A stretch of DNA of 35,451 bases from Coriobacteriia bacterium (GTDB taxonomy: Bacteria; Actinomycetota; Coriobacteriia; Anaerosomatales; JAAXUF01), in assembly GCA_013336165.1 (NCBI GenBank), contig JAAXUF010000015.1:1-35451 (forward strand). The letters are read 5' to 3'. Each line of letters begins with the position of its first letter. The first letter of the stretch is position 1. Positions 4,292 to 29,273 of the stretch are shown here, one piece after another. Under the pieces are notes generated by a model. It ran no database searches. It saw only the letters and a list, made by a program, of their open reading frames with translations, and was not told the origin of the DNA. Both the position numbers and the translations under genes were made by a program.

Positions 4292-4337
4292 TGCCGAGTG
4301 CCCCCAGGGAATCTTGAAATCTCGGCGTCGAATTCGA

Positions 4338-4368
4338 TTGACCACGGCTGCGACGAACCAAATACAAT
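4338..4368 (+). promoter_or_regulatory. Putative promoter of apbE
   Basis: TTGACC at 4338-4343 and TACAAT at 4363-4368, with a 19-base spacer, somewhat long for a housekeeping sigma factor. A transcript starting about 7 bases later would begin downstream of the in-frame ATG at 4367, which favours the ATG at 4397 as the apbE start. It suggests apbE can be transcribed separately from the HMA-like gene. Confidence 0.45.
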
Positions 4369-4396
4369 GTCTCGAACGCCTAAGAAGGGTCGAGAC

Positions 4397-5353
4397 ATGG
4401 CGCACGCGGAATTGCCGAACATAACCGGAGGCTGGACTGGCTCGGCGTCCGCGACGATCTTCGCCTTCAACACGCTTGTGACAATCTCGGCGCAATGCGA
4501 TCAGTCCCTGATCGATGAGGCCGTCGAACTGTGCCGGTATTTCGAGCTGGCGTTCTCCCGCACGGTGGAGGACGGCGACGTCGTACGGATCAACCGATCC
4601 GCCGGAAAGCCCGTCGGAGTCGGTTTGGAGACGGCCGATCTCATATCGACCTCTCTGCGGTACTGCGAAATCTCAGGAGGCCTCTTCGATATCACCATGG
4701 GCGCGGTCACAACGCTGTGGGACTTCAATGAGGGAGTCATCCCTAGCCGACGAGACATCGTCGAGGCTCTTCGGCATGTGGGTTACCGGAACGTCCATGT
4801 CGATGGCACTACCGTGCGGATCGACGACCCCGCCGCCAAGATCGACCTCGGCGGCATCGCCAAGGGCTACATCACCGATGCACTCGCGAAACACCTCCGA
4901 GCCGGTGGTGTGACATCGGGCCTCATCAACCTCGGCGGCAATGCATTCGGCCTGGGGACGAAGCCGGACGGCTCGAAATGGCGTCTCGGCATTCGGGATC
5001 CGAACAATCCCGACGGAGGCCTCATCGGCGTTGTGGAAGTTGCGGATCGATCCGCCGTCACAAGCGGCTTGTACGAACGAAACTTCACCAGTGACGGTGT
5101 GCTCTACCATCACATCCTCGACCCAAAGACCGGTTTTCCCGCCGAGACCGACGTCAAGAGCGTGACGATTCTGTCTCCAACTTCGATTGACGGCGATGGG
5201 CTTTCTACCGCTCTGCTCCTCATGGGCGTCGAGCGAGCAATCGCTCTCATAGAGTCACTCGAAGGACTCGATGCGATCTTCGTCGACACTCACGACAACC
5301 TCATTTGCACCAGCGGAATCGGCACCGCTATCCCCTTCACGCGCGTGGGGTAG
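4397..5353 (+). CDS. apbE: FAD:protein FMN transferase (ApbE)
   Basis: Transfers FMN from FAD to a Ser/Thr of target flavoproteins. ApbE motifs appear in order: an N-terminal region with DGDVVRINRSAG, GGLFDITMGAV with a Trp soon after, KIDLGGIAKGYITDA (FAD site), LINLGGNAFGLG, and HHILDPKTGFPAE (metal/FAD site). About 318 aa from the ATG at 4397, chosen because AAGGG precedes it and the probable promoter lies just upstream; an in-frame GTG at 4298 and an ATG at 4367 are less likely. No signal peptide or lipobox is visible, unlike the exported Ftp lipoproteins of many Gram-positives. It probably acts in the cytoplasm, which would suit substrates that fold before Tat export. No FMN_bind-type target is encoded in this window. 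Confidence 0.92.
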   Translation: MAHAELPNITGGWTGSASATIFAFNTLVTISAQCDQSLIDEAVELCRYFELAFSRTVEDGDVVRINRSAGKPVGVGLETADLISTSLRYCEISGGLFDITMGAVTTLWDFNEGVIPSRRDIVEALRHVGYRNVHVDGTTVRIDDPAAKIDLGGIAKGYITDALAKHLRAGGVTSGLINLGGNAFGLGTKPDGSKWRLGIRDPNNPDGGLIGVVEVADRSAVTSGLYERNFTSDGVLYHHILDPKTGFPAETDVKSVTILSPTSIDGDGLSTALLLMGVERAIALIESLEGLDAIFVDTHDNLICTSGIGTAIPFTRVG

Positions 5354-5496
5354 CCGAGGAAAGAACTGCTTGGGCATGAGCGGCGCTCACGTGCCTCTCT
5401 TCAGCAGTCTACCTTGCGACGTTCGCTCGATATGCTTTGTTTGGACGCCACCCCGCGGCTCCTGCAATTCATGCCAGACCCGTTGCCATGCCGCCG

Positions 5497-6084
5497 TCAG
5501 AGTCCGCGCTCCGTCAACCAGCACTGGTCGTCAGACAGCTCCTGACGTCGACGCTTGGCTTCTTCAACCGACTCCTGCTTCACGTAGTCGGCGACGCGAG
5601 TCATGCGTGCGTGATTCATGAGCCACTCTGCATTCTCAGCAGCACGCTTGCGTCGGTCGACTGCATCTGGGATATCCCGTCGCCGAGGACGAATGCGTTG
5701 CAGCTTCACGGTCTTGGCCTGCAGGAGAGCCTTTGCCTCGCCAGCGACAGTGAACATCGCTTCTGGGTGAGGCGGCTGCTGGAGTCGCGCGGCGCTCAGC
5801 AGACCCAGCACTTGAAGCTTGGTAACCGCGAGTAGCAGACCCTCGCCCTCAAGTCGTCCTGCGAACTCGCGCTCAATGTGCAGGTAGTCGTACTGGCGGC
5901 CCGAAATGAAGCTGATGATCGCAAGCTCCTCAGCGGACACTTCGCGTTCCAGGCGTTGAACTCGCACATACGACCGCAGACGCTTGAGCCAACCGGGCGC
6001 GGCGCGAGTCAGCCTGCCAAACGTGGAGTTGGCGATAGGCAGGAGGATCTTCTCTGCCGCCCACACCAGCACAGCTTCCGGCAC
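5497..6084 (-). CDS. Hypothetical protein, weakly SieB-like
   Basis: 195 aa from a GTG at 6084, chosen because GGGAGGG lies about 9 bases upstream; the longest frame starts at a TTG at 6102. The N-terminal 40 residues are amphipathic (VLVWAAEKILLPIANS) and no clear transmembrane helix is seen. Residues about 45-90 (SAEELAIISFISGRQ, then a short region and FAGRLEGEGLLL) recall the cytosolic part of superinfection-exclusion protein B, where an EE-AI--FI helix precedes a V--L---GIL segment. This is a weak, by-eye resemblance. The C-terminal 60 residues are charged and probably helical. It is the last gene of a minus-strand block holding an abortive-infection gene, so a defence role is possible but not shown. 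Confidence 0.55.
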   Translation of the reverse strand: MPEAVLVWAAEKILLPIANSTFGRLTRAAPGWLKRLRSYVRVQRLEREVSAEELAIISFISGRQYDYLHIEREFAGRLEGEGLLLAVTKLQVLGLLSAARLQQPPHPEAMFTVAGEAKALLQAKTVKLQRIRPRRRDIPDAVDRRKRAAENAEWLMNHARMTRVADYVKQESVEEAKRRRQELSDDQCWLTERGL

Positions 6085-6259
6085 CTCGCGACTCCCTCCC
6101 AAGCGCTATATCCAACGTTGTACAGCATGCGCAGGCGCCCGTGCACTCTCTGCTCTCTACCTCCCGCGCTTTGGCCTGAGCTTGTTCGATAGCGACGTCA
6201 CTTCTCCGAAAGAAGCGCTCATGTCGACATTGTGATCGACTTCCTACGGAGTGCGCCTA

Positions 6260-7321
6260 TTACTCCTCAAACCATAGTGTCCTCATGAGATCCTGCGCCA
6301 CGGGGAGTGGTATCGTCGCAAGACTGCCACCGGCTTGTTGCAGAACGCCGACTGCAAGGTCTCCTTCAGGGAAGCATCCGTCTCGCCATCTCTTGTATAG
6401 TGCGGCACGGGTGTCGGGTTGAGTCGAGAAGTCCTTCACTTCTGCCGCTACATAGGGATGGAACCGGATGTACTGGCTCATCGAGAAGTAGACTCGGCCT
6501 TCCGGCGGCTCGGAAACGTCGCTCGGGTCTATAACGGGAATGCCATCTTCCGCCACAATCTCCTCAAGGGCATCAATGAGCGCCAACTGATATCCCGTGA
6601 CCATGAAGTCCTTTCCGGATAGCAGGAAGAGGTCGTTCGAGGCATCTGGGAAGTAGCGCGGCACATAAGTTGCGCTCGTGATGTTCATTGAAAGGCGGGG
6701 ACTGTCGGAAGCCCACTCCCTAGTGGAATCTGGCGGGGGATCCGCTACCACTGAACTGAATATCCCGTGGAATTCGTCAGGCACGTATAGCCAGTTGCTG
6801 GACGACTGCCAGATCAACTCATTCAGTCTGCGGTTCACTTCAACATCGAGTTCACTCCAAACCCATCTCGACGGTGCGACCGCAGCGTCGTACGTCGCAA
6901 GCACGGAGTACCAGTGAAGCGCCTTCGTGAGATCGATCTCTCGACTCACCGTCGGCTGCGCGCCCGACTCCGTCGACCGTCGGGGAGATTGGCTTCGCTG
7001 CAAGCATCGCGGAGCGCAGTCGGACACACATGGCCCTGAAGCCCCACATCCGACCCATTTTCCATCATCGCTCTCAACCCAGACCTCCACGCTGACTTTG
7101 CCGCGAAGCCCCCCGAGGTTGGCATAGACTGCTGGCGCCATCAATCGGGCCTGCTCAAGTGAAAGCGAAGGCATGTGCGCTCTGTCTTCGCGATGAAGAC
7201 CAACGTACCAGTACCGCTTCTTCGGGTCACTGTCGGCTGGCTCCACGTGCCATTCAACCCCGGGAGCAGTCTGCGCCATCGCCCGATGGACATCAGCATT
7301 ACTAGTCCTGAACAACCCCAT
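6260..7321 (-). CDS. Hypothetical protein, 353 aa
   Basis: I do not recognise this protein. It starts with ATG (MGLFRTSNADV) behind a GGGGGA ribosome-binding site, has no signal peptide or membrane segment, and is rich in Trp and Tyr in the middle (residues about 140-190). A stretch near residues 90-115 contains four cysteines (CGASGPCVSDCAPRC), which could be structural or metal-binding. The C-terminal part looks globular and acidic. Base composition is visibly more A/T-rich than in the flanking housekeeping genes, as in its two neighbours. It lies between the Abi_C gene and the possible SieB-like gene on the same strand, with 173 and 175 bases of spacing, so the three may be one imported module. 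Confidence 0.6.
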   Translation of the reverse strand: MGLFRTSNADVHRAMAQTAPGVEWHVEPADSDPKKRYWYVGLHREDRAHMPSLSLEQARLMAPAVYANLGGLRGKVSVEVWVESDDGKWVGCGASGPCVSDCAPRCLQRSQSPRRSTESGAQPTVSREIDLTKALHWYSVLATYDAAVAPSRWVWSELDVEVNRRLNELIWQSSSNWLYVPDEFHGIFSSVVADPPPDSTREWASDSPRLSMNITSATYVPRYFPDASNDLFLLSGKDFMVTGYQLALIDALEEIVAEDGIPVIDPSDVSEPPEGRVYFSMSQYIRFHPYVAAEVKDFSTQPDTRAALYKRWRDGCFPEGDLAVGVLQQAGGSLATIPLPVAQDLMRTLWFEE

Positions 7322-7341
7322 CGCGTCCCCCTACAGACAAA

Positions 7342-7359
7342 GCGGGCAGTGGTGCCCGC
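7342..7359 (-). promoter_or_regulatory. Small hairpin upstream of the 353-aa gene
   Basis: GCGGGC (7342-7347) and GCCCGC (7354-7359) form a 6-bp stem with a 6-base loop. On the minus strand it is followed by TTTG and then the ribosome-binding site of the 353-aa gene. It could be a weak terminator or attenuator between the Abi_C gene and the next gene. Evidence is only the inverted repeat. Confidence 0.3.
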
Positions 7360-7494
7360 CTGATGATGTTGCGCAAGTGTACTAGCTCGCCTTTGGGTCT
7401 GTCGAACGTCCAACGAAATGAGCAGACGCGCATCCGTTTGCTTGTCAGCGTAGCTCTTGGCGTTCTGCTCGATTCGCTTGTTGGGCAGGTGCGG

Positions 7495-8301
7495 TCAGAA
7501 TGGGATCGCATCATTCCAATCGAGCGCGTGACCCGTCTCGCCGTCCACCCGACCCTCCACTGTATCCATGAAGCGAACCAAGGACGCTACGTGCGCAAAG
7601 ACGAGAAGGCTCTCGTCATGATCCATTAGGTCGTTGTCATGCGCCAGACTCTGTTCATTCCGAGCACCATTCAGGGCCTCAAGGATAGATGTCGTCGACT
7701 TGAGTATCCGAAGGGTGATTTCGGATTCGATGGCGCCTTGTGCACGCACAGCCTTGATGTACTCACCCATGAGGCTATGCAGCGGCTTATCCCGGGAGAC
7801 CTCGATACCGCGCCGGCGGCACAAACGACGCATGTACTTCACCATGAAGGTGTGCAGGCGATCGATTGCCGCCTCAGTCTCGTTCCGATCGATCGCCTCA
7901 CGAACATACCGGGCGACAGTCTCGAACGCCTCGTCCGCATCAGGCGGCGCGACCAAAGCTGCCGCATCCGCAACAGGCGCGGATGTGCGAAGACGCTCGA
8001 TTATGGCCAGATCCTCAGGTGCGGGCGCATCAAACCCGTTCGTCTCGAAGTCAGCCCAGTTCTCCAGCAGAGGAACAAGTGCCCTAGCAACGGTGTGGTT
8101 GTCCGCGGTCTCCCAAAAAGCCCGCATGTGGTTGGCCTTGGACGCACCACGGTACCCGTAGTTGTCGTCGTAGATGTTGATGCCTGCGACGTCGCTAAAG
8201 TAGTCAGCGAAGGTTGTGTTCGAGAAGTTCAGGACGTAGCCGGAACCCATGCCCAGCAGTCGCTCCAGCTTCCGCTTCTCGACAACGCTTAGGTCAGCCA
8301 A
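7495..8301 (-). CDS. Abortive infection protein with Abi_C-type C-terminal domain
   Basis: 268 aa. The N-terminal region has the block usual in this group: a leucine-rich start, LLGMGSGYVLNFSNTTFADYF, then INIYDDNYGYRGASKANHMRAFW. The C-terminal third (TSILEALNGARNEQSLAHDN, then VFAHVASLVRFMDT) matches the abortive-infection C-terminal family (PF14355), with its RN-x(5)-AH motif; such R-x4-6-H patterns in AbiF/AbiD-like and HEPN proteins are associated with RNase activity. Likely role: phage defence by growth arrest or RNA cleavage; the trigger is unknown. I chose the TTG at 8301 because AGGGGGG lies 6 bases upstream; the ATG at 8328 has no such site. First of three accessory genes on this strand. 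Confidence 0.75.
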   Translation of the reverse strand: MADLSVVEKRKLERLLGMGSGYVLNFSNTTFADYFSDVAGINIYDDNYGYRGASKANHMRAFWETADNHTVARALVPLLENWADFETNGFDAPAPEDLAIIERLRTSAPVADAAALVAPPDADEAFETVARYVREAIDRNETEAAIDRLHTFMVKYMRRLCRRRGIEVSRDKPLHSLMGEYIKAVRAQGAIESEITLRILKSTTSILEALNGARNEQSLAHDNDLMDHDESLLVFAHVASLVRFMDTVEGRVDGETGHALDWNDAIPF

Positions 8302-8352
8302 ACGACACCCCCCTACTCTGCCCAACATCTGGTTAACAAACTGGCTGACGGT

Positions 8353-8688
8353 CTACTCGCCGTGAACTGAGCACCTGGTCTTCTTCGTGGCATCGTCGAA
8401 GGTGTACGTCCCGCCGGACGGACAAGCCTTGCCGATGCTCTTCAAGACCGTTCCGAAGGAGACCTCGGCCGTTGCCCCGGCGACGGGAACAATGTATTTC
8501 TTGTCGATTTCCTGCCTGATCGCTGTGCAGGCTATGGCACTCGCCTGTTCCTTGGCCGAATTCACCACGGCAGACGGATCCGGCAGATTAATGTTCTGAC
8601 CGTTCACTTGGGCTTTAGTCCCGCATCCGGCAAGCGCCAACGCACAGCAGATCACAAGTACCGAGAACAGGACTCGCTTTGTTGCCAA
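8353..8688 (-). CDS. Small exported lipoprotein with a pilin-like CPSGGTY tail
   Basis: 111 aa. A lipoprotein signal is clear: basic start (ATKR), a hydrophobic stretch, and the lipobox LAGC with Cys about residue 22, so the protein should be anchored to the outer face of the membrane. The C-terminus carries ACPSGGTYTFDDATKKTRCSVHG. The CP-GG-Y...C--HG pattern is one I know from C-termini of type IV pilin/pseudopilin-like proteins, where the two Cys form a disulfide; here it is attached to a lipoprotein, not a prepilin leader. Start is TTG at 8688 with GAGGAG 6 bases upstream. The hairpin between porB and this gene lies upstream of it. Function unknown. Confidence 0.8.
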   Translation of the reverse strand: MATKRVLFSVLVICCALALAGCGTKAQVNGQNINLPDPSAVVNSAKEQASAIACTAIRQEIDKKYIVPVAGATAEVSFGTVLKSIGKACPSGGTYTFDDATKKTRCSVHGE

Positions 8689-8840: not shown

Positions 8841-9770
8841 CTACTCCGCGCAGCGCCTCTCGATGTAGTTCCAGTACCGGTCGACCTCAGCCTGAACGCT
8901 TGCGAGCAACTCGGCGTTCTCGGGCTTGAAGAGGTGCTTGAAGCGGCCTTGCGGTTTCAAGAACTCCTCGATGGGCTTGCGGTTGGGGACCTTGACCGTC
9001 TGACGCCACACGCCATCTTCGACCTCGAACAGCGGCCAGAAGCCGGTCTGCACCGCGAGCTTCGTGATGGAGATCGTCTGGTCGGGAGCCGTGCGCCATC
9101 CGCGAGGGCATGTCGCAAGGATGTTGAGGAACGCGGGGCCTTCGACGTTGAACGCCTTCTCGGCCTTGTTGGTGAGGTCTCTCCAGTGGCTGATCGAAGC
9201 CTGCGCAGCGTAGGGCACACCATGGGCGGCGATGATCGACGTGAGGTCCTTGCGGCGCTGCTCCTTGCCCTGCTGGGCCTTGCCGACCTCGGCGGTCGTC
9301 GCCCATGCGCCGAACGGCGTGGCGGACGAACGCTGGATGCCGGTGTTCATGTACGCGCCGTTGTCGTAACAGACGTAGACCATGTCGTGGCCGCGCTCCA
9401 TGGCGCCCGACAGCGACTGCAGGCCGATGTCGTAGGTGCCACCGTCCCCGCCGAAGGCGACGAACTTGATCTTCTTGTCGGCGGGAATCTTGCCGGCGGC
9501 CTTCAGGCCTTTGAATGCAGCCTCGACGCCCGACACGGTGGCAGCCGCGTTTGCGAATGCGTTGTGAATGAACGGCGTCTTCCACGACGAGTACGGGTAG
9601 ATCGTGGTCGAGACTTCGAGGCACCCGGTGGCGCAGCCGGTGACAACCGCGTTATCGCCCGCGGCAAGAAGCACCTGGCGGGCCGCAATCGACGCACCAC
9701 ACCCGGCACACAGGCGATGGCCGCCCGCGAGGCGGTCTTCGCATGCAGCGAGTTCTTTTATCGTTGGCAT
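8841..9770 (-). CDS. porB: Pyruvate:ferredoxin oxidoreductase, beta subunit
   Basis: 309 aa, cytoplasmic. It carries the thiamine-diphosphate site of the enzyme that oxidises pyruvate plus CoA to acetyl-CoA and CO2, reducing ferredoxin. Seen: HRLCAGCGA near the N-terminus (Cys ligands of a proximal 4Fe-4S cluster), the TPP motif GDGGTYDIG continuing to YDNGAYMNTGIQ, and ATCPRGWR. The SSATPFGAWATT segment after the TPP motif is typical of PorB. The ATG at 9770 (MPTIKELA) is preceded by AAGGA; the frame runs open a further 20 codons into porA. It is the last gene of porG-porD-porA-porB and starts 13 bases after the porA stop. Confidence 0.93.
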   Translation of the reverse strand: MPTIKELAACEDRLAGGHRLCAGCGASIAARQVLLAAGDNAVVTGCATGCLEVSTTIYPYSSWKTPFIHNAFANAAATVSGVEAAFKGLKAAGKIPADKKIKFVAFGGDGGTYDIGLQSLSGAMERGHDMVYVCYDNGAYMNTGIQRSSATPFGAWATTAEVGKAQQGKEQRRKDLTSIIAAHGVPYAAQASISHWRDLTNKAEKAFNVEGPAFLNILATCPRGWRTAPDQTISITKLAVQTGFWPLFEVEDGVWRQTVKVPNRKPIEEFLKPQGRFKHLFKPENAELLASVQAEVDRYWNYIERRCAE

Positions 9771-9783
9771 GTGCTGGTCCTTC

Positions 9784-10971
9784 CTACCGTGTGCCGAGGT
9801 AGACGAGCCCGCTGGGCTCGGCGACGCCACCGGCTATGTCGGCCAAGTCGCTGTAGACCCGGCGAATGAGTTCGAGCTTCACGTCTGCGCCACCGAGGCC
9901 GTAGATGTAGTTCACCATGGCCGGGCGGGTCGTGCAGTCGTAGAGCGCGCTGCGCACCTCGAGGAAGAGCGGGCCACCCTCGGCGCCGAACGACTCGGCA
10001 CGGTCGAGCACCGCGACCGCCTTGACGCCCTTGAGAGCCTCGGCGATATCGACGAACGGGAACGGGCGGAACACGCGGATCTTGAGCACGCCGGCCTTGA
10101 CGCCCTGGGCCCGAAGCTCGCGCGCAATGTGGCGGACGTTGCCTGCGGTCGAGCCGATAACAACGATCGCGATCTCGGCGTCTTCCATGCCCCAGCCCTC
10201 GACGACGTCGAACGGGCGGCCGCTGACGGCAGACCACTCGGCGCCAACGCTCTTGATGACCCCGAGCGAACGGTCGATGGCGGTGCGCTCGGCCTGCTTG
10301 AACTCGAAGTACGTTCCGCCCAGACCGGCGAAGTTGCCGTGGCTGACAGGATGATCGGTGTCGAGGAGCGCGTTTTCGGGATGATACTCGCCCACGAACG
10401 CCTTGACCGTCTCGTCGTCCATGAGTTGGGCGCGATCGATCGAGTGCGTCGTGATGAAGCCGTCGAGCGTCGTCATGACCGGCAGCATGACCTGCGGGTT
10501 CTCGGCGACGCGAATCGCCATGAGCGTATTGTCGTACGCTTCCTGCGCGGTCTCCGCAAAGTAGATGATCCAGCCGGTGTCGCGCGCGCCCATGATGTCG
10601 GAGTGATCGCAATGGATGTTGATCGGTGCCGCTAGTGCGCGGTTGGCGTTGGCCATCACGATGGGCAGACGCAGACCGGCCGCGATGTGGAGTTCCTCCC
10701 ACATGTAGGCCAAGCCCTGCGACGAGGTCGCGGTCATGACGCGGGCGCCTGCGGCCGAAGCGCCGACGGCGGCGCTCATTGCCGAGTGCTCGCTCTCGAC
10801 CGTCACGTACTCGGTGTGCACGCGGCCCTGAGCGACGAACTTGGCGAACTCCTCGACGATGGTTGTCTGTGGCGTTATCGGGTACGCAGGAACGACGTCG
10901 GGAGCGCACTGGCGAAACGCCTCGGCGACAAGCGAGTTGCCCGTGGTGGCTACGATCTTCTGTTCGGCCAT
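9784..10971 (-). CDS. porA: Pyruvate:ferredoxin oxidoreductase, alpha subunit
   Basis: 395 aa. This subunit binds the pyrimidine end of TPP and shapes the substrate pocket. The AYPITPQT motif is near the N-terminus, followed by VESEHSAMSAAVGASAAGAR, TSSQGLAYMWEELHIA and INIHCDHSD, all close to archaeal and Thermotoga PorA as I remember them. FRPFPFVDIAEAL and VLDRAESFGAEGGPL mark the C-terminal domain. The CDHSD motif and overall pattern favour pyruvate over 2-oxoglutarate or branched-chain substrates, but substrate is inferred. It starts one base after the porD stop, so translation is likely coupled. Confidence 0.94.
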   Translation of the reverse strand: MAEQKIVATTGNSLVAEAFRQCAPDVVPAYPITPQTTIVEEFAKFVAQGRVHTEYVTVESEHSAMSAAVGASAAGARVMTATSSQGLAYMWEELHIAAGLRLPIVMANANRALAAPINIHCDHSDIMGARDTGWIIYFAETAQEAYDNTLMAIRVAENPQVMLPVMTTLDGFITTHSIDRAQLMDDETVKAFVGEYHPENALLDTDHPVSHGNFAGLGGTYFEFKQAERTAIDRSLGVIKSVGAEWSAVSGRPFDVVEGWGMEDAEIAIVVIGSTAGNVRHIARELRAQGVKAGVLKIRVFRPFPFVDIAEALKGVKAVAVLDRAESFGAEGGPLFLEVRSALYDCTTRPAMVNYIYGLGGADVKLELIRRVYSDLADIAGGVAEPSGLVYLGTR

Positions 10972-10972
10972 G

Positions 10973-11296
10973 CTACTTCACCTCCGGGAGTTCGCAGCCT
11001 TCGAGCGCCATCGAAATGGCGTCAGACGGGCATTCATGCGCGCAGATACCGCAACCTTTGCAGTGGTCGAGATCAAATGACACGACCTTGCCGTCATTGA
11101 GAACGACCGAGCTGTCGGGGCAGTAGATCCAGCAAATCAGGCACTGGGTGCACTTGGATTCGTCGCGCCAGGGGCGCTCGCTGCGCCAGCCGCCGGTGAC
11201 GTAATCAGCCGAGTTGCCGGCTTCGGGAATCATCGCGCCACGGGGGAAGTCTTCGCTCTTCCAGTCGTCGATGGAGGAAATATCCCACTTGCTCAT
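10973..11296 (-). CDS. porD: Pyruvate:ferredoxin oxidoreductase, delta (ferredoxin-like) subunit
   Basis: 107 aa. The C-terminal half is a bacterial 2[4Fe-4S] ferredoxin with two full motifs, CTQCLICWIYCP and CKGCGICAHECP, which pass electrons from the TPP site to free ferredoxin. The N-terminal half (about residues 1-50) is the usual PorD extension, including PRGAMIPEAGNSADYVTGGWR. Its ATG overlaps the porG stop in an ATGA arrangement, indicating translational coupling. Confidence 0.95.
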   Translation of the reverse strand: MSKWDISSIDDWKSEDFPRGAMIPEAGNSADYVTGGWRSERPWRDESKCTQCLICWIYCPDSSVVLNDGKVVSFDLDHCKGCGICAHECPSDAISMALEGCELPEVK

Positions 11297-11868
11297 CCCG
11301 CAGCCACCTCCTCATACGCGCGTTGGACGGAGTCAAGGTTCGCGTCGATGATGTCTTGGCCGAACTTCTTGCCAAACGTCTTGACCAGCAGGCCCTTGAC
11401 GGCATCCAGATCCACGACGCCGGTAAGACGCGCAAGCGCGCCGACCATCGGCGTGTTGGGAATGTCGCGCCCGATCGTCTCAAGCGCGATGGTGGTCGCG
11501 TCGCACGAAGCTACCACCACCGAATCCTTGACTCCGAGCACCTTGCGCAGCACCGCCGGAGCAGTGCACGTGTTGACGATGATAACGCCGTCGTCGGCGA
11601 CTCCTTCAGTCACATCGATGACATCGAGCAGGGTCTCGTCAAGGACGACGACGACGTGAGGGTTCTCGATATTGTTGTGGATCTCAATCGGTTGATCGCT
11701 GATACGCGTGAACGCCTTGATCGGCGCGCCCATGCGCTCGGGCCCATACTCGGGCATGGCCTGCATGTACCGGTCCTGCGACAGCGCAGTCTCGGCGACG
11801 AGCTTAGCCGCCGTAACCGCGCCCTGACCGGCGCGTGCGTGCCAACGGATCTCCGTCAGCTGCTGCAT
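11293..11868 (-). CDS. porG: Pyruvate:ferredoxin oxidoreductase, gamma subunit
   Basis: 191 aa, first gene of the operon. The N-terminus has the gamma-subunit signature IRWHARAGQGAVTAAKLVAE, followed by the YMQAMPEYGPERMGAPIKAF segment. This subunit completes the delta-alpha-beta-gamma enzyme and contributes to CoA binding. AAGGGAAG lies about 10 bases before the ATG. The 163 bases upstream (11869-12031) must hold the promoter; an AT-rich TATTCT is visible on the minus strand but I could not pair it with a convincing -35, so no promoter is called. Confidence 0.93.
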   Translation of the reverse strand: MQQLTEIRWHARAGQGAVTAAKLVAETALSQDRYMQAMPEYGPERMGAPIKAFTRISDQPIEIHNNIENPHVVVVLDETLLDVIDVTEGVADDGVIIVNTCTAPAVLRKVLGVKDSVVVASCDATTIALETIGRDIPNTPMVGALARLTGVVDLDAVKGLLVKTFGKKFGQDIIDANLDSVQRAYEEVAAG

Positions 11869-14832: not shown

Positions 14833-14937
14833 GTGTGCCGAGCGGACCCGGACGCTCGTCAGGGGCCGCTTATGGCTGCTTCCTTCCGGACCTGACCAGG
14901 TTCACGGCATGTCGCCGTCCGAGCCCGCTCGGCACAC
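14833..14937 (-). ncRNA. ffs: Signal recognition particle RNA (4.5S/small type)
   Basis: The minus strand contains the universal SRP RNA apical core GGTCAGGTCCGGAAGGAAGC (within 14874-14897). The ends of the molecule pair: GTGTGCCGAGCGG at the 5' end (14925-14937 as complement) with its complement at 14833-14845. This gives a hairpin RNA of about 105 nt without an Alu domain. The 3' side runs into TCGTGTTTTAT, a plausible terminator tail. The placement upstream of dnaX is conserved in many Gram-positive bacteria. Confidence 0.95.
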
Positions 14938-19083: not shown

Positions 19084-20667
19084 TTGAACGGGATGCATAC
19101 TGCGGGCCTAAAGAAAGACTCTGCCGTGCCGATCGCAATGGAAACAACGAGAAGATCAAGCGGTCTTCTGAGAGCGCTTGCAGGGTTCTCTATAGTCCCT
19201 GCTTTGGGAATCGCCTCGTTCAGACTCTCGGCTTGGACGATGTTCTCGTCGGGGATCGAGTCACCGGACAACACGTACACGCTGTCCGTTGTCGCGCAAG
19301 CCTTGGTGGTCATCGCAGTTCTCCTCGCCCTGAGACGAAGCAGATTCTCTCCTCGGCAGACCACGATACCGATTGCGGTCGCCGCCTTGGCTATGACGCT
19401 CGGTGCGCTCTTGGCTACCTCGCCGATCTACTTTCAGAGCTTCACTTCCGATGCTGTGGTAATGGCTGGCGGAGTGCTTCACGGAGCCGCCTCTGCAATT
19501 CTGCTTCTGGGCTGGGGTAACCTCCTGTGCTCGATCGAACCTCGCCGGTCCGCCCCCTACATCGTCTTCTCGTTCATGATCTACGGCCTTTCTTCCGCCC
19601 TTCTCTCTGGGGCGTCTGCATCAGTGCTGGAGTTTGTCACACTGGCGCTGCCGGCAGCATCAGCCTTCTTCCTCGTCTGGAGTCTCAAGAATACGCAGAA
19701 CATGGAAACCCGAGAGGTCACGATTACGCGGCCCATTCTCAAGGGACTGCCTTGGGGCATGTTCACGCTCCTGGTCATCTGCGCGATCGTGAACAGTGCA
19801 ATCAAGGGACTCATTGCGGCAAACATCTCAACGGCAACTGCGTCCTACAATCTCCTTTTGACCGGACTCTATTCCGCGATCTTCCTCGTTTTGTGTGTTT
19901 GGCTATTCGGCCTCAAACGCGACGATCCGGAGAAGATGTGGCCCCTCTTCATCATCATCTTGTTCGGAAGCCTGCTCTTCTACTCATCGTTCTCATCTGA
20001 GCACCTTGATATGGCAAGTAGCTTCGTCTCAGTCGCGCAAGGTTGTATCACTATGTTCTTCTGGGTGTTCCTCGCGGCAGCCATATACAGACAGCAACTG
20101 CCCAGACTGATCTTCTTCGGCCTAGGCAACCTGGTCTTCAGACAGGTACCGTCCTTCTTGTCAGATGCCTTCGCGTGGATCGCCCCAGGGTTCTACATTC
20201 AGGCAAGCCGCACGCTCGCAGTTGCCATCACCAGCATGAGTGCTCTGCTTGTGATCATCGCCACAATCGTCTTGCTCACCAGGCAAAGCAAGAAGATCGA
20301 TGTTGAGATCAACTCACAGGCCAAGGCGGAAGCGCCGAGCGATGCGCTGCCCTCGGCAACAGACTCCCTCGCCGCGAGATACGGACTCACGTCACGCGAA
20401 TCAGAGGTCGTCACCATTATGGCGCACGGCTATACCCTCCGGCAGATCGGAGAGGCGCTCTACATAAGCCATGACACCGTGCGTTCACATTCAAAGAGCA
20501 TTCATCGCAAACTTGGCATCCACCACAAACAGGAATTGCTCAAAATGATTGAGCAGGAGAGCAAGGAGTATATGCTCGCCGGAGACTCGAATGGCACGCC
20601 ACCGGCGACCGAGCCTTCGACGGCCGACGGCGTTCGCACTGCCGCCGACCCTCCCTCTCCTTCCTAG
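19084..20667 (+). CDS. LuxR-type regulator with polytopic membrane domain (copy 1)
   Basis: 527 aa. About twelve hydrophobic segments occupy residues about 30-415, followed by a cytoplasmic linker and a LuxR/NarL-type HTH (about 433-490: LTSRESEVVTIMAHG, then QIGEALYISHDTVRSHSKSIHRKLGI). The membrane part has the WLFGLKRDDPEKMWPLF and LIFFGLGNLVFRQ motifs also found in copy 2 (27831-29273). It is a one-component membrane sensor that should bind DNA at the membrane; such proteins are abundant in Coriobacteriia next to reductase genes. The start is uncertain: TTG at 19084, ATG at 19093 or ATG at 19138, none with an ideal ribosome-binding site. The C-terminal 30 residues are a Pro/Thr/Ala-rich tail. 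It converges on the tandem reductase genes, with hairpins between. Confidence 0.9.
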   Translation: MNGMHTAGLKKDSAVPIAMETTRRSSGLLRALAGFSIVPALGIASFRLSAWTMFSSGIESPDNTYTLSVVAQALVVIAVLLALRRSRFSPRQTTIPIAVAALAMTLGALLATSPIYFQSFTSDAVVMAGGVLHGAASAILLLGWGNLLCSIEPRRSAPYIVFSFMIYGLSSALLSGASASVLEFVTLALPAASAFFLVWSLKNTQNMETREVTITRPILKGLPWGMFTLLVICAIVNSAIKGLIAANISTATASYNLLLTGLYSAIFLVLCVWLFGLKRDDPEKMWPLFIIILFGSLLFYSSFSSEHLDMASSFVSVAQGCITMFFWVFLAAAIYRQQLPRLIFFGLGNLVFRQVPSFLSDAFAWIAPGFYIQASRTLAVAITSMSALLVIIATIVLLTRQSKKIDVEINSQAKAEAPSDALPSATDSLAARYGLTSRESEVVTIMAHGYTLRQIGEALYISHDTVRSHSKSIHRKLGIHHKQELLKMIEQESKEYMLAGDSNGTPPATEPSTADGVRTAADPPSPS

Positions 20668-20802: not shown

Positions 20803-23019
20803 CTAGATCGCCCGTGCTGCGTCGTACCCGGCCTGGACGGCGTACAAGATGTTCTTGTCCTTGCCTGCACTGGCGCAGTCTCCGACGAGAGAGACCGTGT
20901 ACTTGCTCTTGAGAGCATCGGCGAGCGTGGTGTTTGCAAGCATGTCCCAGCACTCGATGACCGTATCGCACTTCAGGGTCTTCTCGACTCCGGTGTTGAT
21001 CTTCACGACAACTCCGCCATCGACGATCTTCTGGACGGTGGCTGAGTCGAAGATCCTGACGCCATGAGCATAGAGGTGGGGAATGATGTACTGCCGGAAG
21101 TGAATGGACTGCTCCTTGTCGATCTTGGCGGCAACGTCTCCGTGAACCATCGTGACCTGCTTGCCCTGAGCAAGCAGATACATGGCGAGGTCGATCGCCT
21201 GGGCGCCGGCGCCGAGGATGACGACGTTGCTGCCGATCTTGGAGTTGTCGTAGCTGCCGATGTTGACGACCTTCGGGGATGCGACCGTGGAGCTGGCGAA
21301 CTTGGCATCCCGCTTCCCGCCGACCGCAACGATGATCGCATCGGGCTTCACGGTGTCGACGAAGGCGGCGTCGACCTCTTTGCCGGTAACGACGGTGACC
21401 TTGTTGAGCGACTGCTGCTTGGTGAGGAAGGCGATGAGGTCTTCGAGGCGCTCGTGGCTACCCTTGAACCCGCTTGCGGTCTTGACCAGGCCGCCGAGGG
21501 AGCTGCCCTTCTCGTAGAGGGTGACCTTGTGTCCCTTCTGCGCGGCACGACGGGCGGCCTCCATGCCGCCTGGGCCGCCGCCGATGACCATGACGTTCTT
21601 GACGGTCTTCGCAGCGGCCAGCACGTAGCCCTCGGGCAGTGCGGCATTGTAGGCACGCTGGAGGGTGGCGTTTACACGGCAGAGTTCCGGCCCCTTCAGG
21701 CCAGTCCCTGCATCGTGGCAGTGGAAGCAACGGGTGCACGGGGCGACCTCGTCGCGCTTCTTCGCCTGGAGCTTGTTGGGGAGATCGAAATCGGCGGTAA
21801 GCCCACGGTTCATGAAGACCAGGTCGATGTCGCCGTTCTTGACCGCGTTGTTGATGAGATCAGGAGCGGTACGCGGGTCCATGCAGCCGGCGCAGCCGAC
21901 GGGAATCTTGACGGCCTTCTTGATCCTGCTGGTTGCGGGGATGAAGGCCCCGTGACCGTGATGCTTGCCATCTTGCATTCCGTCGAAATGGATACGGTAG
22001 TCAAACATCGTACCGTAGCCGGTCATACCGTCAACACGGAAGCCCGCGTGCATCTGGTCAGGTGCCCAACGGGCGGCTTCGAGGCCGGGAGTGCTCTGGC
22101 GAATCTGAATGAAATCAGCTCCGGCCTTCTCCAGGAGCTTCGCCATTTCGATGGCTTCCTCGACGGTCTGGTACTTGTCGTTATCACCCAGCTTCGTATC
22201 GTTCTCCTCCATGGCATTGATGTGAGCCATGACGTTGAGACCCGGGGCGGCCTTCTTCACGGCCGCGATCTGCTCGCACATCCAGCGACAGCGGTTTTCG
22301 ACGCTCTGCGGGCCGTACTCATCCGTACGCGTATTCGTGGAGGCCGAGTGAATGCTGCTCAGGGCGTCTGCCGTAGCGGCCTTGACCTCAAGCACGTCCC
22401 ATCCCGCCTTCTGCAGGCGCACCGCGGCAGCGGCGATATCCGTCGTGTACTGGTGAATCTGATCGACGGTCCAAGTGCTGAGGTTGACTCCCATGCCGCC
22501 CGTGTTGAACTGCAATCCGCAATAGGCGCCGTCCTTGTGTATGGCGTCCGAGAGAACCTTCGCCGGCGCGATGCCCTCATCCAGAGTCTTGACCTTCATT
22601 GTGCTGCTTGGAGCTGAGACCGCACTGAAGCCCAAGTAGCTGAGCGCACCGCCCTCACACATCACGAGGGCCGCACCGCCCTTGGCAAAACCGGTGTAGT
22701 AGTAGAGTTCCCTGTCGGCGATCTTGGCAGTGGCCGAGTCAGGCGTGTCCGAGCCTGCTGCGGTCTTGATGATGCGGTTCTTCAGCTTCATGCTGCCGAT
22801 CTGAATCGGCGAGAAGATCGCGGCGTAGTCCGTCGTGTAGGTGTCATACGTTTCATCTTGCGGGTTCAGTATGTCAACGAACATCTTCTTCTCTGCGGGT
22901 GCCGCTGTCTGCGTGGTGGACGACCCGCAGCCACCCAGTACAGAAGCGGCAGTCACCCCGAGTGCTGCCACTGTGACGCCCTCGATGAATCCGCGTCTAG
23001 TGAGTCCCTCTTTCTTCAT
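20803..23019 (-). CDS. Tat-exported lipoprotein, OYE/dienoyl-CoA-reductase-like flavin reductase (A)
   Basis: 738 aa. The N-terminus is a Tat signal (LTRRGFIEG, Arg8-Arg9) ending in a lipobox (VLGGC, Cys31), so the folded protein should be anchored outside the membrane. An OYE-like FMN barrel follows (FSPIQIGSMKLKNRIIKT, NTRTDEYGPQSVENRCRW). Next are four cysteines at 428, 431, 434 and 447 for a 4Fe-4S cluster, then an FAD fold (NVMVIGGGPGGMEAARRA) and a second nucleotide fold (VVILGAGAQAID). The architecture is that of 2,4-dienoyl-CoA reductase and trimethylamine dehydrogenase. The substrate is unknown, and the usual OYE VEIHxAHGYL histidines are replaced (LEVKAATADAL). Start ATG with AAGGAG upstream. 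It probably reduces an extracellular organic compound; the electron route is not evident. Confidence 0.9.
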   Translation of the reverse strand: MKKEGLTRRGFIEGVTVAALGVTAASVLGGCGSSTTQTAAPAEKKMFVDILNPQDETYDTYTTDYAAIFSPIQIGSMKLKNRIIKTAAGSDTPDSATAKIADRELYYYTGFAKGGAALVMCEGGALSYLGFSAVSAPSSTMKVKTLDEGIAPAKVLSDAIHKDGAYCGLQFNTGGMGVNLSTWTVDQIHQYTTDIAAAAVRLQKAGWDVLEVKAATADALSSIHSASTNTRTDEYGPQSVENRCRWMCEQIAAVKKAAPGLNVMAHINAMEENDTKLGDNDKYQTVEEAIEMAKLLEKAGADFIQIRQSTPGLEAARWAPDQMHAGFRVDGMTGYGTMFDYRIHFDGMQDGKHHGHGAFIPATSRIKKAVKIPVGCAGCMDPRTAPDLINNAVKNGDIDLVFMNRGLTADFDLPNKLQAKKRDEVAPCTRCFHCHDAGTGLKGPELCRVNATLQRAYNAALPEGYVLAAAKTVKNVMVIGGGPGGMEAARRAAQKGHKVTLYEKGSSLGGLVKTASGFKGSHERLEDLIAFLTKQQSLNKVTVVTGKEVDAAFVDTVKPDAIIVAVGGKRDAKFASSTVASPKVVNIGSYDNSKIGSNVVILGAGAQAIDLAMYLLAQGKQVTMVHGDVAAKIDKEQSIHFRQYIIPHLYAHGVRIFDSATVQKIVDGGVVVKINTGVEKTLKCDTVIECWDMLANTTLADALKSKYTVSLVGDCASAGKDKNILYAVQAGYDAARAI

Positions 23020-23076
23020 GCCCCACTCCTTCCTTTGGATCTTCAGTTGTTGCGCCGCGGCAGTGCGGCCAACATG

Positions 23077-23082
23077 AATCTA
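23077..23082 (-). promoter_or_regulatory. Putative -10 element of reductase A
   Basis: TAGATT on the minus strand, about 57 bases before the start codon. It occupies the same position relative to the conserved upstream block as TAGGCT does in reductase B (41 bases from the GATAGCCC motif in both). The -35 position is GATGCG in both, not a consensus hexamer, which suggests an activator-dependent promoter. Confidence 0.35.
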
Positions 23083-23100
23083 CCGAGAGGGGCTGGTCCT

Positions 23101-23123
23101 CGCATCCCACCAACGGGGCTATC
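23101..23123 (-). promoter_or_regulatory. Conserved upstream block, reductase A
   Basis: 23 bases, identical at 20 positions to 25548-25570 upstream of reductase B, by eye. It lies between the dyad element and the -10-like element. It could be part of the activator site or the -35 region. Confidence 0.45.
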
Positions 23124-23138
23124 TCGCCTACTGCACTC

Positions 23139-23153
23139 CACATGAATGATGTG
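23139..23153. promoter_or_regulatory. Candidate operator upstream of reductase A
   Basis: CACATGAATGATGTG, an imperfect dyad with CACAT/ATGTG arms, 120 bases before the start codon. It differs at only two positions from the element at the corresponding place in front of reductase B (CACATCGATGATGTG). A plausible site for one or both LuxR-type regulators. Confidence 0.5.
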
Positions 23154-23167
23154 ATACGTACATCGAC

Positions 23168-23202
23168 AAGAAGGCCCGCGACAGGGAGCCGCGGGCCTTC
23201 TT
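23168..23202. terminator. Terminator after reductase B
   Basis: A 13-bp stem (23168-23180 with 23190-23202), loop of 9 bases, differing from the copy at 20725-20759 by one loop base. It separates the two reductase genes, which are therefore probably independent transcription units. Confidence 0.75.
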
Positions 23203-23207
23203 GCTCG

Positions 23208-23228
23208 CTGCAGCTGGATCAGCTGCAG
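23208..23228. repeat. Second hairpin after reductase B
   Basis: The same perfect 9-bp-arm inverted repeat (CTGCAGCTG / CAGCTGCAG) as at 20765-20785, at the same distance from the stop codon. It belongs to the duplicated unit. Confidence 0.7.
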
Positions 23229-23245
23229 GACTATAACGATGCTGG

Positions 23246-25465
23246 CTAGATCGCCCGTGCCGCGTCGTACCCGGCTTGGATCGCGTACAAGATGTTCTTG
23301 TCCTTGCCTGCACTGGCGCAGTCACCGACGAGAGAGACCGTATACTTGCTCTTGAGAGCATCGGCGAGTGTGGTGTTTGCAAGTATGTCCCAGCATTCCA
23401 CGACCGTATCGCACTTCAGAGTTGTCTCAATCCCTGCACCCGTCTTGATGACAATCCCGCCGTCGACGATCTTCTGGGGGGTAGATTCGCTCCAGATCTT
23501 GACACCCTTCGCCTGGAGATGCGGCGGAATGTACTGCCGGAAGTGTGCGGACTGCTCCTTGTCGAGCTTGGCGGCAACGTCCGCGTGAACCATCTGTACC
23601 TTCTTGCCCTGTGCAAGCAGGTAGAAGGTGAGGTCGACCGCTTGGGCGCCGGCGCCAAGGATGACGACGTTGCTGCCGACCTTGGAGTTGTCGTAGCTGC
23701 CGATGTTGACGACCTTCGGGGACGCGACCGTGGAACTCGCGAACTTGGCGTCCCTCTTGCCGCCGACAGCAACGATGATCGCATCGGGCTTCACGGTGTC
23801 AACGAAAGCGGCGTCGACCTCTTTGCCGGTGACAACCGTGACCTTGTTAAGCGTCTGCTGCTTGGTGAGGAAGGCGATGAGGTCTTCGAGGCGCTCGTGG
23901 CTGCCCTTGAACCCGCTTGCGGTCTTGACCAGACCACCGAGGGAAGTGCCCTTCTCGTAGAGGGTGACCTTGTGTCCCTTCTGAGCGGCACGGCGGGCAG
24001 CCTCCATGCCGCCAGGGCCGCCGCCGATGACCATGACATTCTTGACGGTCTTCGCGGGGGCCAGCACGTAGCCCTCGGGCAGTGCGGCGGTGTAGGCGCG
24101 CTGAGTGGCGGCGTTCACGCGACAGAGCTCCGGCTCTTTGGGGCTAATCCCCGCAGTATGGCAGTGGAAGCAGCGGGTGCACGGGGCGACCTCGTCGCGC
24201 TTCTTCGCCTTAAGCTTGTTGGGGAGCTCCGGATCCACGGTGAGCGGACGGTTCATGAAGATCAGGTCGATGTCACCGTTCTTGACCGCGTTGTTCATGA
24301 GGTCAGGAGCGGTACGTGGATCCATGTAGCCGGCACAGCCGACGGGAATCTTGACGGCCTTCTTGATCAGTGCAGCGCCGGGGATGAAAGCGCCGACACC
24401 GTGGTGCTTTCCATCCTGCAGCCCCTCGAAGTGGCTGGAGTAATCGAACTGCGTGCCGTAGCCGGTCATGCCGTCGGCATGGAAGCCCGCGTGCATCTGG
24501 TCTGGGGCCCAGCAGGCAGGTTCAAGGCCGGGGGTGCCAACGCGAACCTGGATCCAGTCGACTCCGGCCTTCTCGAGGAGCTTCGCCACTTCGACGGATT
24601 CTTCGACGGTGAGGTACTTGTCGTTGTCACCAAGCTTCGCGTCGTTCTCCTCGTAAACGTTGATGAGAGTCGAGACGACAAAGTCCTTGCCGCAGGCCGC
24701 CTTCATTGCCTGAACTATTTCACATAGCCAGCGGGCACGGTTCTCGATGCTCTGCGGACCGTATTCATCTTTGCGCTTGTTCTGGCGCCGGGTGATGAAT
24801 GCGTTCATGTCGTCTGAAGTGGCGCCCTTGAACTCGACGATGTCGAATCCCGCCTTCTTCGCGGCCAGCGCCTGCTGGGCGAAGTTGGCCGTGAGCTGCT
24901 TGATCTGTGCGACGCTCAGCGTGTCAACCTGCAGAATGGCCGCTGCCGGGCCGAGGCTTCCTGTGGTCATCTGGAACCCCACATAGGCGCCGGCTGCATG
25001 CACGGCGTCCGACATGACCTTTGCGCCTGCGGTGGCCTCATCGAAAGTCTTAAAGGTAGTCGAGGTCAGTCCATTGAAGCCGTAGGGGGCCATCACGCCG
25101 CCGTCCATCATTACCACCGCTGCGCCACCCTTGGCGAAGTTAGTCATGTAATCCAGGCTGTTTTGGCTGAGTGGCGGCTTCGACGAATGGGTGTCTGAAC
25201 CTGCCCCGGTCTTGATGATGCGGTTCTTCAACGTCAGGCTGCCAACCTTGATCGGCGAGAAGATCGCAGCGTAGTCGGTGGTGTAGGTGTCATACTTTGT
25301 GTCCTGCGGGTTCAGTGTATCAACGAACATGCTCTTCTCTGCGGGAGCTGCCGTCTGCGTGGTAGACGACCCGCAACCGCTCAGTACAGAAGCGGCAGTC
25401 ACCCCGAGTGCTGCCACTGTGACGCCTTCGATGAAGCCGCGTCTGGTAAGTCCCTCATTCTTCAC
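23246..25465 (-). CDS. Tat-exported lipoprotein, OYE/dienoyl-CoA-reductase-like flavin reductase (B)
   Basis: 739 aa, a paralogue of reductase A. Tat motif LTRRGFIEG and lipobox VLSGC match A almost exactly, as do the last 320 or so residues: cluster cysteines at 429, 432, 435 and 448, an FAD fold and a second nucleotide fold. Residues about 93-250, the first half of the barrel, are strongly diverged, with gaps (A: ELYYYTGFAKGGAALVMCEGG; B: SLDYMTNFAKGGAAVVMMDGG). The usual OYE histidine motif is replaced here too (VEFKGATSDDM). The start is GTG at 25465 with AAGGAG 6 bases upstream, where A has ATG. It should use the same redox chemistry on a different substrate. It has its own dyad element and -10-like sequence and ends at its own terminator. 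Confidence 0.9.
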   Translation of the reverse strand: MKNEGLTRRGFIEGVTVAALGVTAASVLSGCGSSTTQTAAPAEKSMFVDTLNPQDTKYDTYTTDYAAIFSPIKVGSLTLKNRIIKTGAGSDTHSSKPPLSQNSLDYMTNFAKGGAAVVMMDGGVMAPYGFNGLTSTTFKTFDEATAGAKVMSDAVHAAGAYVGFQMTTGSLGPAAAILQVDTLSVAQIKQLTANFAQQALAAKKAGFDIVEFKGATSDDMNAFITRRQNKRKDEYGPQSIENRARWLCEIVQAMKAACGKDFVVSTLINVYEENDAKLGDNDKYLTVEESVEVAKLLEKAGVDWIQVRVGTPGLEPACWAPDQMHAGFHADGMTGYGTQFDYSSHFEGLQDGKHHGVGAFIPGAALIKKAVKIPVGCAGYMDPRTAPDLMNNAVKNGDIDLIFMNRPLTVDPELPNKLKAKKRDEVAPCTRCFHCHTAGISPKEPELCRVNAATQRAYTAALPEGYVLAPAKTVKNVMVIGGGPGGMEAARRAAQKGHKVTLYEKGTSLGGLVKTASGFKGSHERLEDLIAFLTKQQTLNKVTVVTGKEVDAAFVDTVKPDAIIVAVGGKRDAKFASSTVASPKVVNIGSYDNSKVGSNVVILGAGAQAVDLTFYLLAQGKKVQMVHADVAAKLDKEQSAHFRQYIPPHLQAKGVKIWSESTPQKIVDGGIVIKTGAGIETTLKCDTVVECWDILANTTLADALKSKYTVSLVGDCASAGKDKNILYAIQAGYDAARAI

Positions 25466-27798: not shown

Positions 27799-27814
27799 AC
27801 TTGTCGCGACAAGT
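27799..27814. promoter_or_regulatory. Palindrome in the leader of luxR copy 2
   Basis: ACTTGTCGCGACAAGT, a perfect 16-base palindrome located roughly 13-28 bases downstream of the expected transcription start and just before the ribosome-binding site. A candidate autoregulatory operator. As RNA it could also form a short hairpin near the GGGAG site. Confidence 0.5.
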
Positions 27815-27830
27815 CGGGAGCTATAACACT

Positions 27831-29273
27831 ATGGCTATCAGGCAGGGAGTTGAAAGGCGCTCGCCCGGATACTCTGCCGCTGCCTCGATAGTCATCATCG
27901 CTCTTGGCATTGCGAGCTTCCGCGCGTCAGCTACGAGCATGTTCAAGTATGACGCGGACATGGGAACCCAGTTCTCCTACGCGCTCTCGATGCTCGTGCA
28001 AGTCGTTGCCGTGATCAGTGTCATCGCCTTCAGCGACCGCCTTCTGAAATCGAGAAGGGCTCTCGCTCTTGTCTTCTGGGGATCATTGGCAATCGTGCTA
28101 GCCGGGACATCGTTGGTCCTGCTATCTCTGGATCTGGATCCAGCCTCTTCAACGCTAGCCTACGACGCCGGAGTGGCCCTGTCCGGCGCGGGAAGTGCCG
28201 CAGCATTGCTGGGATGGGGCACAAGCTTCTGCTCCTTGGCGCCACGACAGTCCGCGGTTGCAGTATGCTTGGGCTTCTTCATTCACAGCATTCTGGCCTG
28301 CCTGTTCGATGTGCTTCCCAAGGCCTTCACGCTGTATTCGGTTTTCGTCTTCCCGATAATCGCGTCGACGCTTCTCGCCTATTACTACTATTCGCGCAAA
28401 GAGAGCATCCGACTCTACTCCACGCGGACGGCGAGCCTCTCCCCGTCTCAGTTGCCGTGGGGCATCATCTCGCTCCTGGTGCTGTGCTACCTGACGAGCA
28501 GCGTGTTGAGCGTGATCGTTTCGGGTCTCACAACCCCCATGACGGCCCTCTTGCAGCCGCTCGTCTTCGGTGTCAGTTTGGGCATCGTGTGCCTTTGGAT
28601 CTACGCCCTCAAGAGGGATGATCCTGAGAGCCTGTGGCCAATGTTCGTTTTGGGCTTGTTGGGGTGTCTGCTCATCTATCTGACATCTTGGCCGAGTGAC
28701 TCCAGCCTCCTGGTAGGCCTCATGGCCACCATGAAGCAATGGAGCATGATGTTTTATTGGGTGCTGCTTGCCGTGCTGATCTACCAACTCGGATTGTCGC
28801 CCGTTGTCTTCTTCGGACTGGGAAACCTCCTAATCGGTTCCGTCGGCAGGCTGATAGTTGAATTCAGTATGTCCTCGGTTGACGGCACCCAGGCGACCTT
28901 ATCGGCGACGTTCTTCACGTCCTTGATTGCGGTCTTCGCTTTCCTTATCGTCGTCGCCGCATTCTATGCACTCAAGTCCAAGAGATCTCTCATTCCGGAC
29001 AAGCGGGCGCCCGAAGCCGGCTCCAACATCGAGGAGGCCATGAACCACATCGCCCAAGAATACTGTCTATCCAAACGAGAGATCGAAGTCGTCGGCTTTC
29101 TTGTGCGGGGATACACGTTTGGTCAGATGGGCAAGGAGATGTTCCTTTCGATCGACACGGTCCGCTCCTACAGCAAGACCCTCTATAGGAAACTCGGAAT
29201 CCACAAGAAGCAAGAGTTGTATTCACTGATCGAGCAGCGGGCGGGCTCCCATTTGACCGAAACGGTGAGGTAG
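27831..29273 (+). CDS. LuxR-type regulator with polytopic membrane domain (copy 2)
   Basis: 480 aa from the ATG at 27831, which has GGGAG 10 bases upstream; an in-frame TTG at 27801 lies inside the palindrome and is less likely. About twelve hydrophobic segments, then a LuxR HTH at about 412-470 (LSKREIEVVGFLVRG, QMGKEMFLSIDTVRSYSKTLYRKLGI). It shares motifs with copy 1: ALGIASFR near the start, a Trp-Gly pair before a Cys-Ser (LLGWGTSFCSL), YALKRDDPESLWPMF and VVFFGLGNLL. The two are clear paralogues but diverged. A one-component membrane sensor; ligand unknown. It sits between the ACT and UPF0210 genes. Confidence 0.9.
   Translation: MAIRQGVERRSPGYSAAASIVIIALGIASFRASATSMFKYDADMGTQFSYALSMLVQVVAVISVIAFSDRLLKSRRALALVFWGSLAIVLAGTSLVLLSLDLDPASSTLAYDAGVALSGAGSAAALLGWGTSFCSLAPRQSAVAVCLGFFIHSILACLFDVLPKAFTLYSVFVFPIIASTLLAYYYYSRKESIRLYSTRTASLSPSQLPWGIISLLVLCYLTSSVLSVIVSGLTTPMTALLQPLVFGVSLGIVCLWIYALKRDDPESLWPMFVLGLLGCLLIYLTSWPSDSSLLVGLMATMKQWSMMFYWVLLAVLIYQLGLSPVVFFGLGNLLIGSVGRLIVEFSMSSVDGTQATLSATFFTSLIAVFAFLIVVAAFYALKSKRSLIPDKRAPEAGSNIEEAMNHIAQEYCLSKREIEVVGFLVRGYTFGQMGKEMFLSIDTVRSYSKTLYRKLGIHKKQELYSLIEQRAGSHLTETVR

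Follow-up and report, generated by a model that had tools for sequence, protein, structure and literature searches.

The three adjacent minus-strand genes A, B and C between apbE and the por operon most probably form an integrase-less cluster of integron cassettes (CALIN), in which gene A alone would act as an abortive-infection protein and genes B and C would be independent cargo. They lie in a window of 35,451 nucleotides, the whole stretch of DNA that was analysed. This explanation is testable and takes the place of a hypothetical multi-gene defence system, which a sequence-only reading had proposed for the same block.

The block and its attC sites

The genes, candidate recombination sites and flanks are arranged as follows.

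4298-5353, plus strand: apbE (PF02424), one flank of the block
5360-5445, minus strand: attC_C, degenerate, 52 bp after the stop of gene C
5497-6084, minus strand: gene C, 195 aa from a GTG start, member of a small cassette-borne family
6110-6190, minus strand: attC_B, doubtful degenerate remnant, 70 bp after the stop of gene B
6260-7321, minus strand: gene B, 353 aa, with a CGASGPCVSDCAPRC cysteine patch
7401-7486, minus strand: attC_A, 9 bp after the stop of gene A and on the strand of this gene
7495-8301, minus strand: gene A, 268 aa from a TTG start with AGGGGGG upstream; Abi_C (PF14355); N-terminal module at residues ~1-108, predicted HEPN domain at residues 121-257
8319-8325, minus strand: GTTGGGC (GTTRRRY), candidate upstream cassette boundary of gene A, a 7-base match that is weak alone
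8353-8688, minus strand: lipoprotein-like ORF, 111 aa, between gene A and porB
8841-11868, minus strand: por operon, the other flank of the block

The three ORFs, including the 353-residue protein with its cysteine patch, are present as the sequence-only reading had described them, and the gaps that it put at about 170 bases measure 173 and 175 bp. The TTG start of gene A fits its homologues, which begin at the same place. Both metabolic flanks that had been named, apbE and por, are there; the small lipoprotein-like ORF had gone unmentioned. The lower G+C content claimed for the block is modest overall (0.58-0.62 in A, B and C versus 0.636, sd 0.038, in 20 core genes of the window) and clear in GC3 (0.64-0.69 versus 0.80, sd 0.05, in the same core genes). 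The cassettes of the genome's own integron have a GC3 of 0.645 (sd 0.038), and the genes of the block, with gene B at 0.638, match these cassettes and not the core genes. The por operon is kept in 12 relatives, and the block, apbE or the lipoprotein gene follows behind it in none of the 12. Thus, no clean empty site is demonstrable.

Elsewhere in the window, a small bacterial SRP RNA (RF00169, 67.5 bits) is located on the minus strand at 14836-14931. Two adjoining, closely similar flavin oxidoreductases with twin-arginine leaders (738 and 739 aa) occupy 20803-25465 and are flanked by membrane-bound LuxR-type regulators (19084-20667 and 27801-29273). Gene content of this kind, together with the composition of the sister families, suggests that the genome belongs to Coriobacteriia.

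The sequence of attC_A, GCCCAAC...GTTCGAC, encloses the two imperfectly paired arms typical of integron attC sites. Because Rfam gave no attC family match, we built our own attC covariance models. The order-wide model R1 draws on 29 attC sites from six genomes and contains 22 pairs, of which 13 show compensatory changes; model R2 draws on 69 sites from the genome of the block itself. attC_A is in neither. Covariation in the attC stems was pronounced, with 210 cells changed on both sides versus 75 in shuffles. attC_A scored 44 bits with R1 (E 9.5e-10) and 64.4 bits with R2 (E 1.1e-15), within the range of the genome's own sites. One might read it as a chance hairpin in an ordinary genomic island, since its two neighbours attC_B and attC_C are weak. 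This reading is refuted by the E-value of 1.1e-15 from a model trained without attC_A, by the position of the site at the gene stop and on the gene strand, and by the integrase that the genome encodes and its roughly 70 other attC sites, and it retains a negligible probability. Within the window gene A is an intact cassette, and it is the one gene there whose cassette status is proven.

The other two sites are less well preserved. attC_C scored 18.4 bits with R1 (E 0.0082) and 16.9 bits with R2 (E 0.017) and has two repeats in common with attC_A (D16 and D20), so that gene C probably is a cassette with a decayed attC site. attC_B is doubtful: its scores (R1 11.3 bits, E 0.68; R2 8.2 bits, E 4.4) are not significant alone, and what speaks for it are its position, strand and length. 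Its distance of 70 bp from the stop falls just outside the range of -5 to 58 bp (median 7.5 bp) found in the attC array on contig C18 of the same genome. Gene B is presumably the passenger of a second cassette, as its position suggests, and may have been mobile in the past.

The attC site and the probable remnants in the gaps point to A, B and C as independently mobile single-gene cassettes. The block resembles a CALIN as defined by IntegronFinder (PMC9024848) in having cassettes of one gene each, followed by attC and sharing one orientation, in the lack of a nearby intI gene and in the large integron elsewhere in the genome. It differs in that only one of its three attC sites is intact: a CALIN has at least two attC sites and no integrase nearby, and the window contains one clear site, one degenerate site and one that is not significant, which on a strict count do not make a secure two-site CALIN. 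No integrase is encoded in the window; the genome's only IntI at E <= 1e-40 is found on contig C22.

A chromosomal integron in the genome, and its integrase across the order

Elsewhere the genome contains a chromosomal integron, recognized by both an integrase of the IntI subfamily and an attC array. The integrase on C22 scored 483 bits against TIGR02249 (cut-off 265) and matched IntI4 (PDB 2a3v) at 6.7e-91. Seven attC sites lie behind it, and C18, a separate 32-kb contig of the draft, carries an unbroken row of 44 attC sites with a mean spacing of 743 bp. The whole-genome search gave 75 attC matches. The block was presumably left by this large integron: three single-gene cassettes in one orientation would have been inserted between the por operon and apbE, and the resulting cluster would be small and partly decayed. 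Cassette ORFs of the genome include TIR, HigBA, PIN, HNH and SUFU proteins, for example a TIR-TM gene on C18 (L191:5316-6173) and a HigBA toxin-antitoxin cassette on C22 (L172:215-844). A second outlying attC pair, on contig C6 (C6:44433-46722, L194:2434-4723), encloses a single gene for a 713-aa HerA/DUF87-type ATPase.

Of the 69 genomes of the order, which appears to be coriobacterial, 49 encode the integrase (E < 1e-37). Outside the order integrases are sporadic (14 genomes of the phylum sample), and none of the same class occurs there among the matches listed. Many contigs stop shortly after the integrase, which would be the outcome if assemblies broke at repeated attC sites. An order-wide integrase is new for this group. 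A 2022 survey of RefSeq found Actinobacteria, the apparent phylum of the block, without complete integrons and with few CALIN (PMC9024848), in which respect the block is again unlike the CALIN of that survey; a 2021 perspective counts Actinobacteriota among the integron-bearing phyla (PMC8618304). The chromosomal integron of Treponema (PMC3607928) belongs to a different phylum, and the occurrence described here is order-wide. Anti-phage cassettes are already known from Vibrio, whose sedentary chromosomal integrons store such genes, as reviewed in PMC12409362, which cites Darracq 2025 and Getz 2025. The present genome has in common with those of Vibrio an extensive array of cassettes, a defence-like gene that forms a cassette by itself, and TIR and toxin-antitoxin cassettes; the difference is the bacterial group.

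Relatives of genes A, B and C

In favour of one undescribed multi-gene anti-phage system, imported as a unit, are the adjacency and common strand of the three genes, their atypical GC3 and the Abi_C/HEPN nature of gene A. Co-occurrence was examined in the best 80 loci from 445 gene A relatives in named genomes and in the 69 genomes of the order. Gene B or C was found in none of these 80 loci. Within the order, gene A has relatives in two other genomes, G004 (70% identity) and G049 (N-terminal part only), gene C has relatives in two others, G007 and G016, and gene B has none; outside the window, no genome of the 69 contains two of the three. Relatives of gene A were also found on 121 plasmids, those of B and C on none. 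The homologues are thus scattered and do not recur together, the outcome that the sequence-only reading had itself named as speaking against its proposal, and a multi-gene system is unlikely on this account. Together with the attC_A site and the attC-like remnant in the gaps, the existence of gene C homologues as cassettes beside other genes and the rejection of the SieB identity of gene C, this largely refutes the joint system, to which we assign only a very small probability. A, B and C are better regarded as transport companions. More generally, unrelated orphan genes that follow one another at intervals of around 170 bp may represent cassettes of an integron.

Genes B and C gave no meaningful scores in Pfam, PADLOC, NCBIfam or PHROGs. 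SieB, which gene C had been thought to recall weakly, is ruled out, as gene C matched no Pfam family at E <= 1. Import of the block is supported. Of the two phage-exclusion genes suspected in it, gene A stands as a plausible one, a HEPN/Abi_C protein whose family occurs beside defence genes, and gene C does not. Weak matches to Protoglobin, Peripla_BP_6, ThsB and SecE were far under the cut-offs or at chance level. The gene C homologues in G007 and G016 (35-41% identity) both have an attC site directly after the stop, and the one in G016 is located behind an integron integrase. A single-sequence fold of gene C reached a pLDDT of 47 and was set aside. For gene B, no relatives were found in plasmids, viral contigs, 85k genomes, the order or the phylum sample, where two of the collection scans seek near-exact peptides and have distant relatives outside their reach. 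A match in G453 (E 4e-4, 28% identity over 107 aa, three stops) was taken as chance.

The family of gene A, in turn, is repeatedly associated with integrons. The homologue in G004 is intact and has attC sites directly behind and in front. In 10 of 76 named homologues an attC-like site starts no more than about 20 bp from the stop, compared with 7 of 551 control ORFs from the same loci (p 4e-6). Cassette-like homologues occur in Gemmatales, Anaerolineae, Thermoflexales, Acidobacteria, Flavobacterium, Gammaproteobacteria, Neomarinimicrobiota and an archaeal MAG, and a covariance model independently recovers several of these attC-like sites. In the literature searched, the Abi_C family is not reported as an integron cassette. 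Its link to integrons in several phyla is new and concerns a common, uncharacterised abortive-infection family.

Predicted action of gene A

A profile search confirmed the Abi_C domain that had been noticed in gene A (PF14355, 35.7 bits, curated cut-off 24, E ~1e-8), and all 53 aligned family members match this profile. The structure predicted from 53 homologues (pLDDT 82) has two parts, a helical module at the N-terminus and a helical bundle at the C-terminus. Foldseek alone gave no matches at E <= 0.001. In VIA-align, the best 16 rows for residues 121-257 belonged without exception to HEPN proteins, among them MntA-HepT toxins and the C-terminus of AbiA, with Z 8.9-11.2; since a Z near 10 is only moderate for a helical bundle, the case for HEPN lies in the uniformity of these rows together with a motif. 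This motif, R214-x6-H221, corresponds to the Rx4-6H motif of HEPN RNases (PMC3710099), and both residues are invariant across 72 homologues (numbering from the TTG start; R223 and H230 if counted from the upstream ATG at 8328). The C-terminal half of gene A is accordingly predicted to adopt a HEPN RNase fold.

Abortive-infection proteins of the HEPN type whose N-terminal parts can be exchanged are already known (PMC3710099). Gene A shares with AbiJ and other proteins of this kind the C-terminal HEPN domain with the Rx4-6H motif, a swappable N-terminal module and the association with restriction-modification (R-M) operons. AbiJ proteins carry one of the named N-terminal domains AbiJ-NTD1 to 5. 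The N-terminal module of the gene A family, which may correspond to one of these or be distinct, matched no Pfam model in any of the 53 members; PADLOC is without a model for gene A. Gene A probably functions on its own, as an RNase of abortive infection. Its N-terminal module may sense a cue of phage infection, upon which, judging from the family, the HEPN domain, probably as a dimer, would cleave cellular RNA through R214 and H221. The cleavage would halt the cell and thus bring about abortive infection without a partner.

Alternatively, the block may be an integron remnant in which gene A is carried along unexpressed or inactive, or serves as a stress or toxin gene without an anti-phage role here. 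Chromosomal integron cassettes often remain silent. Those distant from an integron promoter are believed to be largely unexpressed (PMC12409362). No convincing promoter was detected upstream of gene A, and the decay of attC_B and attC_C would also fit an inactive remnant. However, gene A is intact with all catalytic residues kept, as is its homologue at 70% identity in G004, and its family is located among defence genes. Moreover, the small lipoprotein gene and the por operon directly precede gene A on its own strand, so that read-through from these genes may provide expression. We consider the silent-cargo alternative possible, at clearly lower probability than that of an active abortive-infection cassette. 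Taken further, the latter explanation would make this Coriobacteriia order one with large chromosomal integrons almost throughout, which scatter cassettes, including stand-alone HEPN abortive-infection genes, into core-genome sites, and the Abi_C family with its exchangeable sensor module a defence gene spread by integrons across phyla; for this wider picture the chances appear evenly balanced.

Members of the gene A family are often found directly beside genes for restriction enzymes, AbiEii, MmeI and pAgo. Among the genes next upstream of 71 homologues are five for XhoI-type endonucleases, five for AbiEii, three for MmeI and three for pAgo proteins, and R-M genes adjoin the homologues in loci L009, L010, L011 and L018 and in G004, including on plasmids. 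Gene A might hence be the effector arm of an R-M system, a PrrC-like guard whose partner was lost in this genome. A tight association between HEPN domains and R-M systems is described (PMC3710099), and an XhoI or MmeI gene is directly upstream in 8 of the 71 loci. Most homologues, however, have no R-M neighbour, and gene A moves alone as a single-gene cassette. In addition, the N-terminal module also travels with other domains: over ~108 residues it recurs in G049 at 56% identity, ahead of a CHAT caspase-like domain, and in Rhizobium tropici at 37% identity, ahead of an Mrr-type nuclease. A guard function thus seems rather improbable. The joining of one module to CHAT, Mrr or HEPN fits a recognition part coupled to varied killing parts.

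The CHAT fusion of G049 is encoded at L013:4916-6250, and the gene behind it (L013:4179-4952) shows 41% identity to a cassette gene beside the gene C homologue in G016 (L015:10523-11209). Both have the motif NRHWILHGRD in common, which recalls HEPN.
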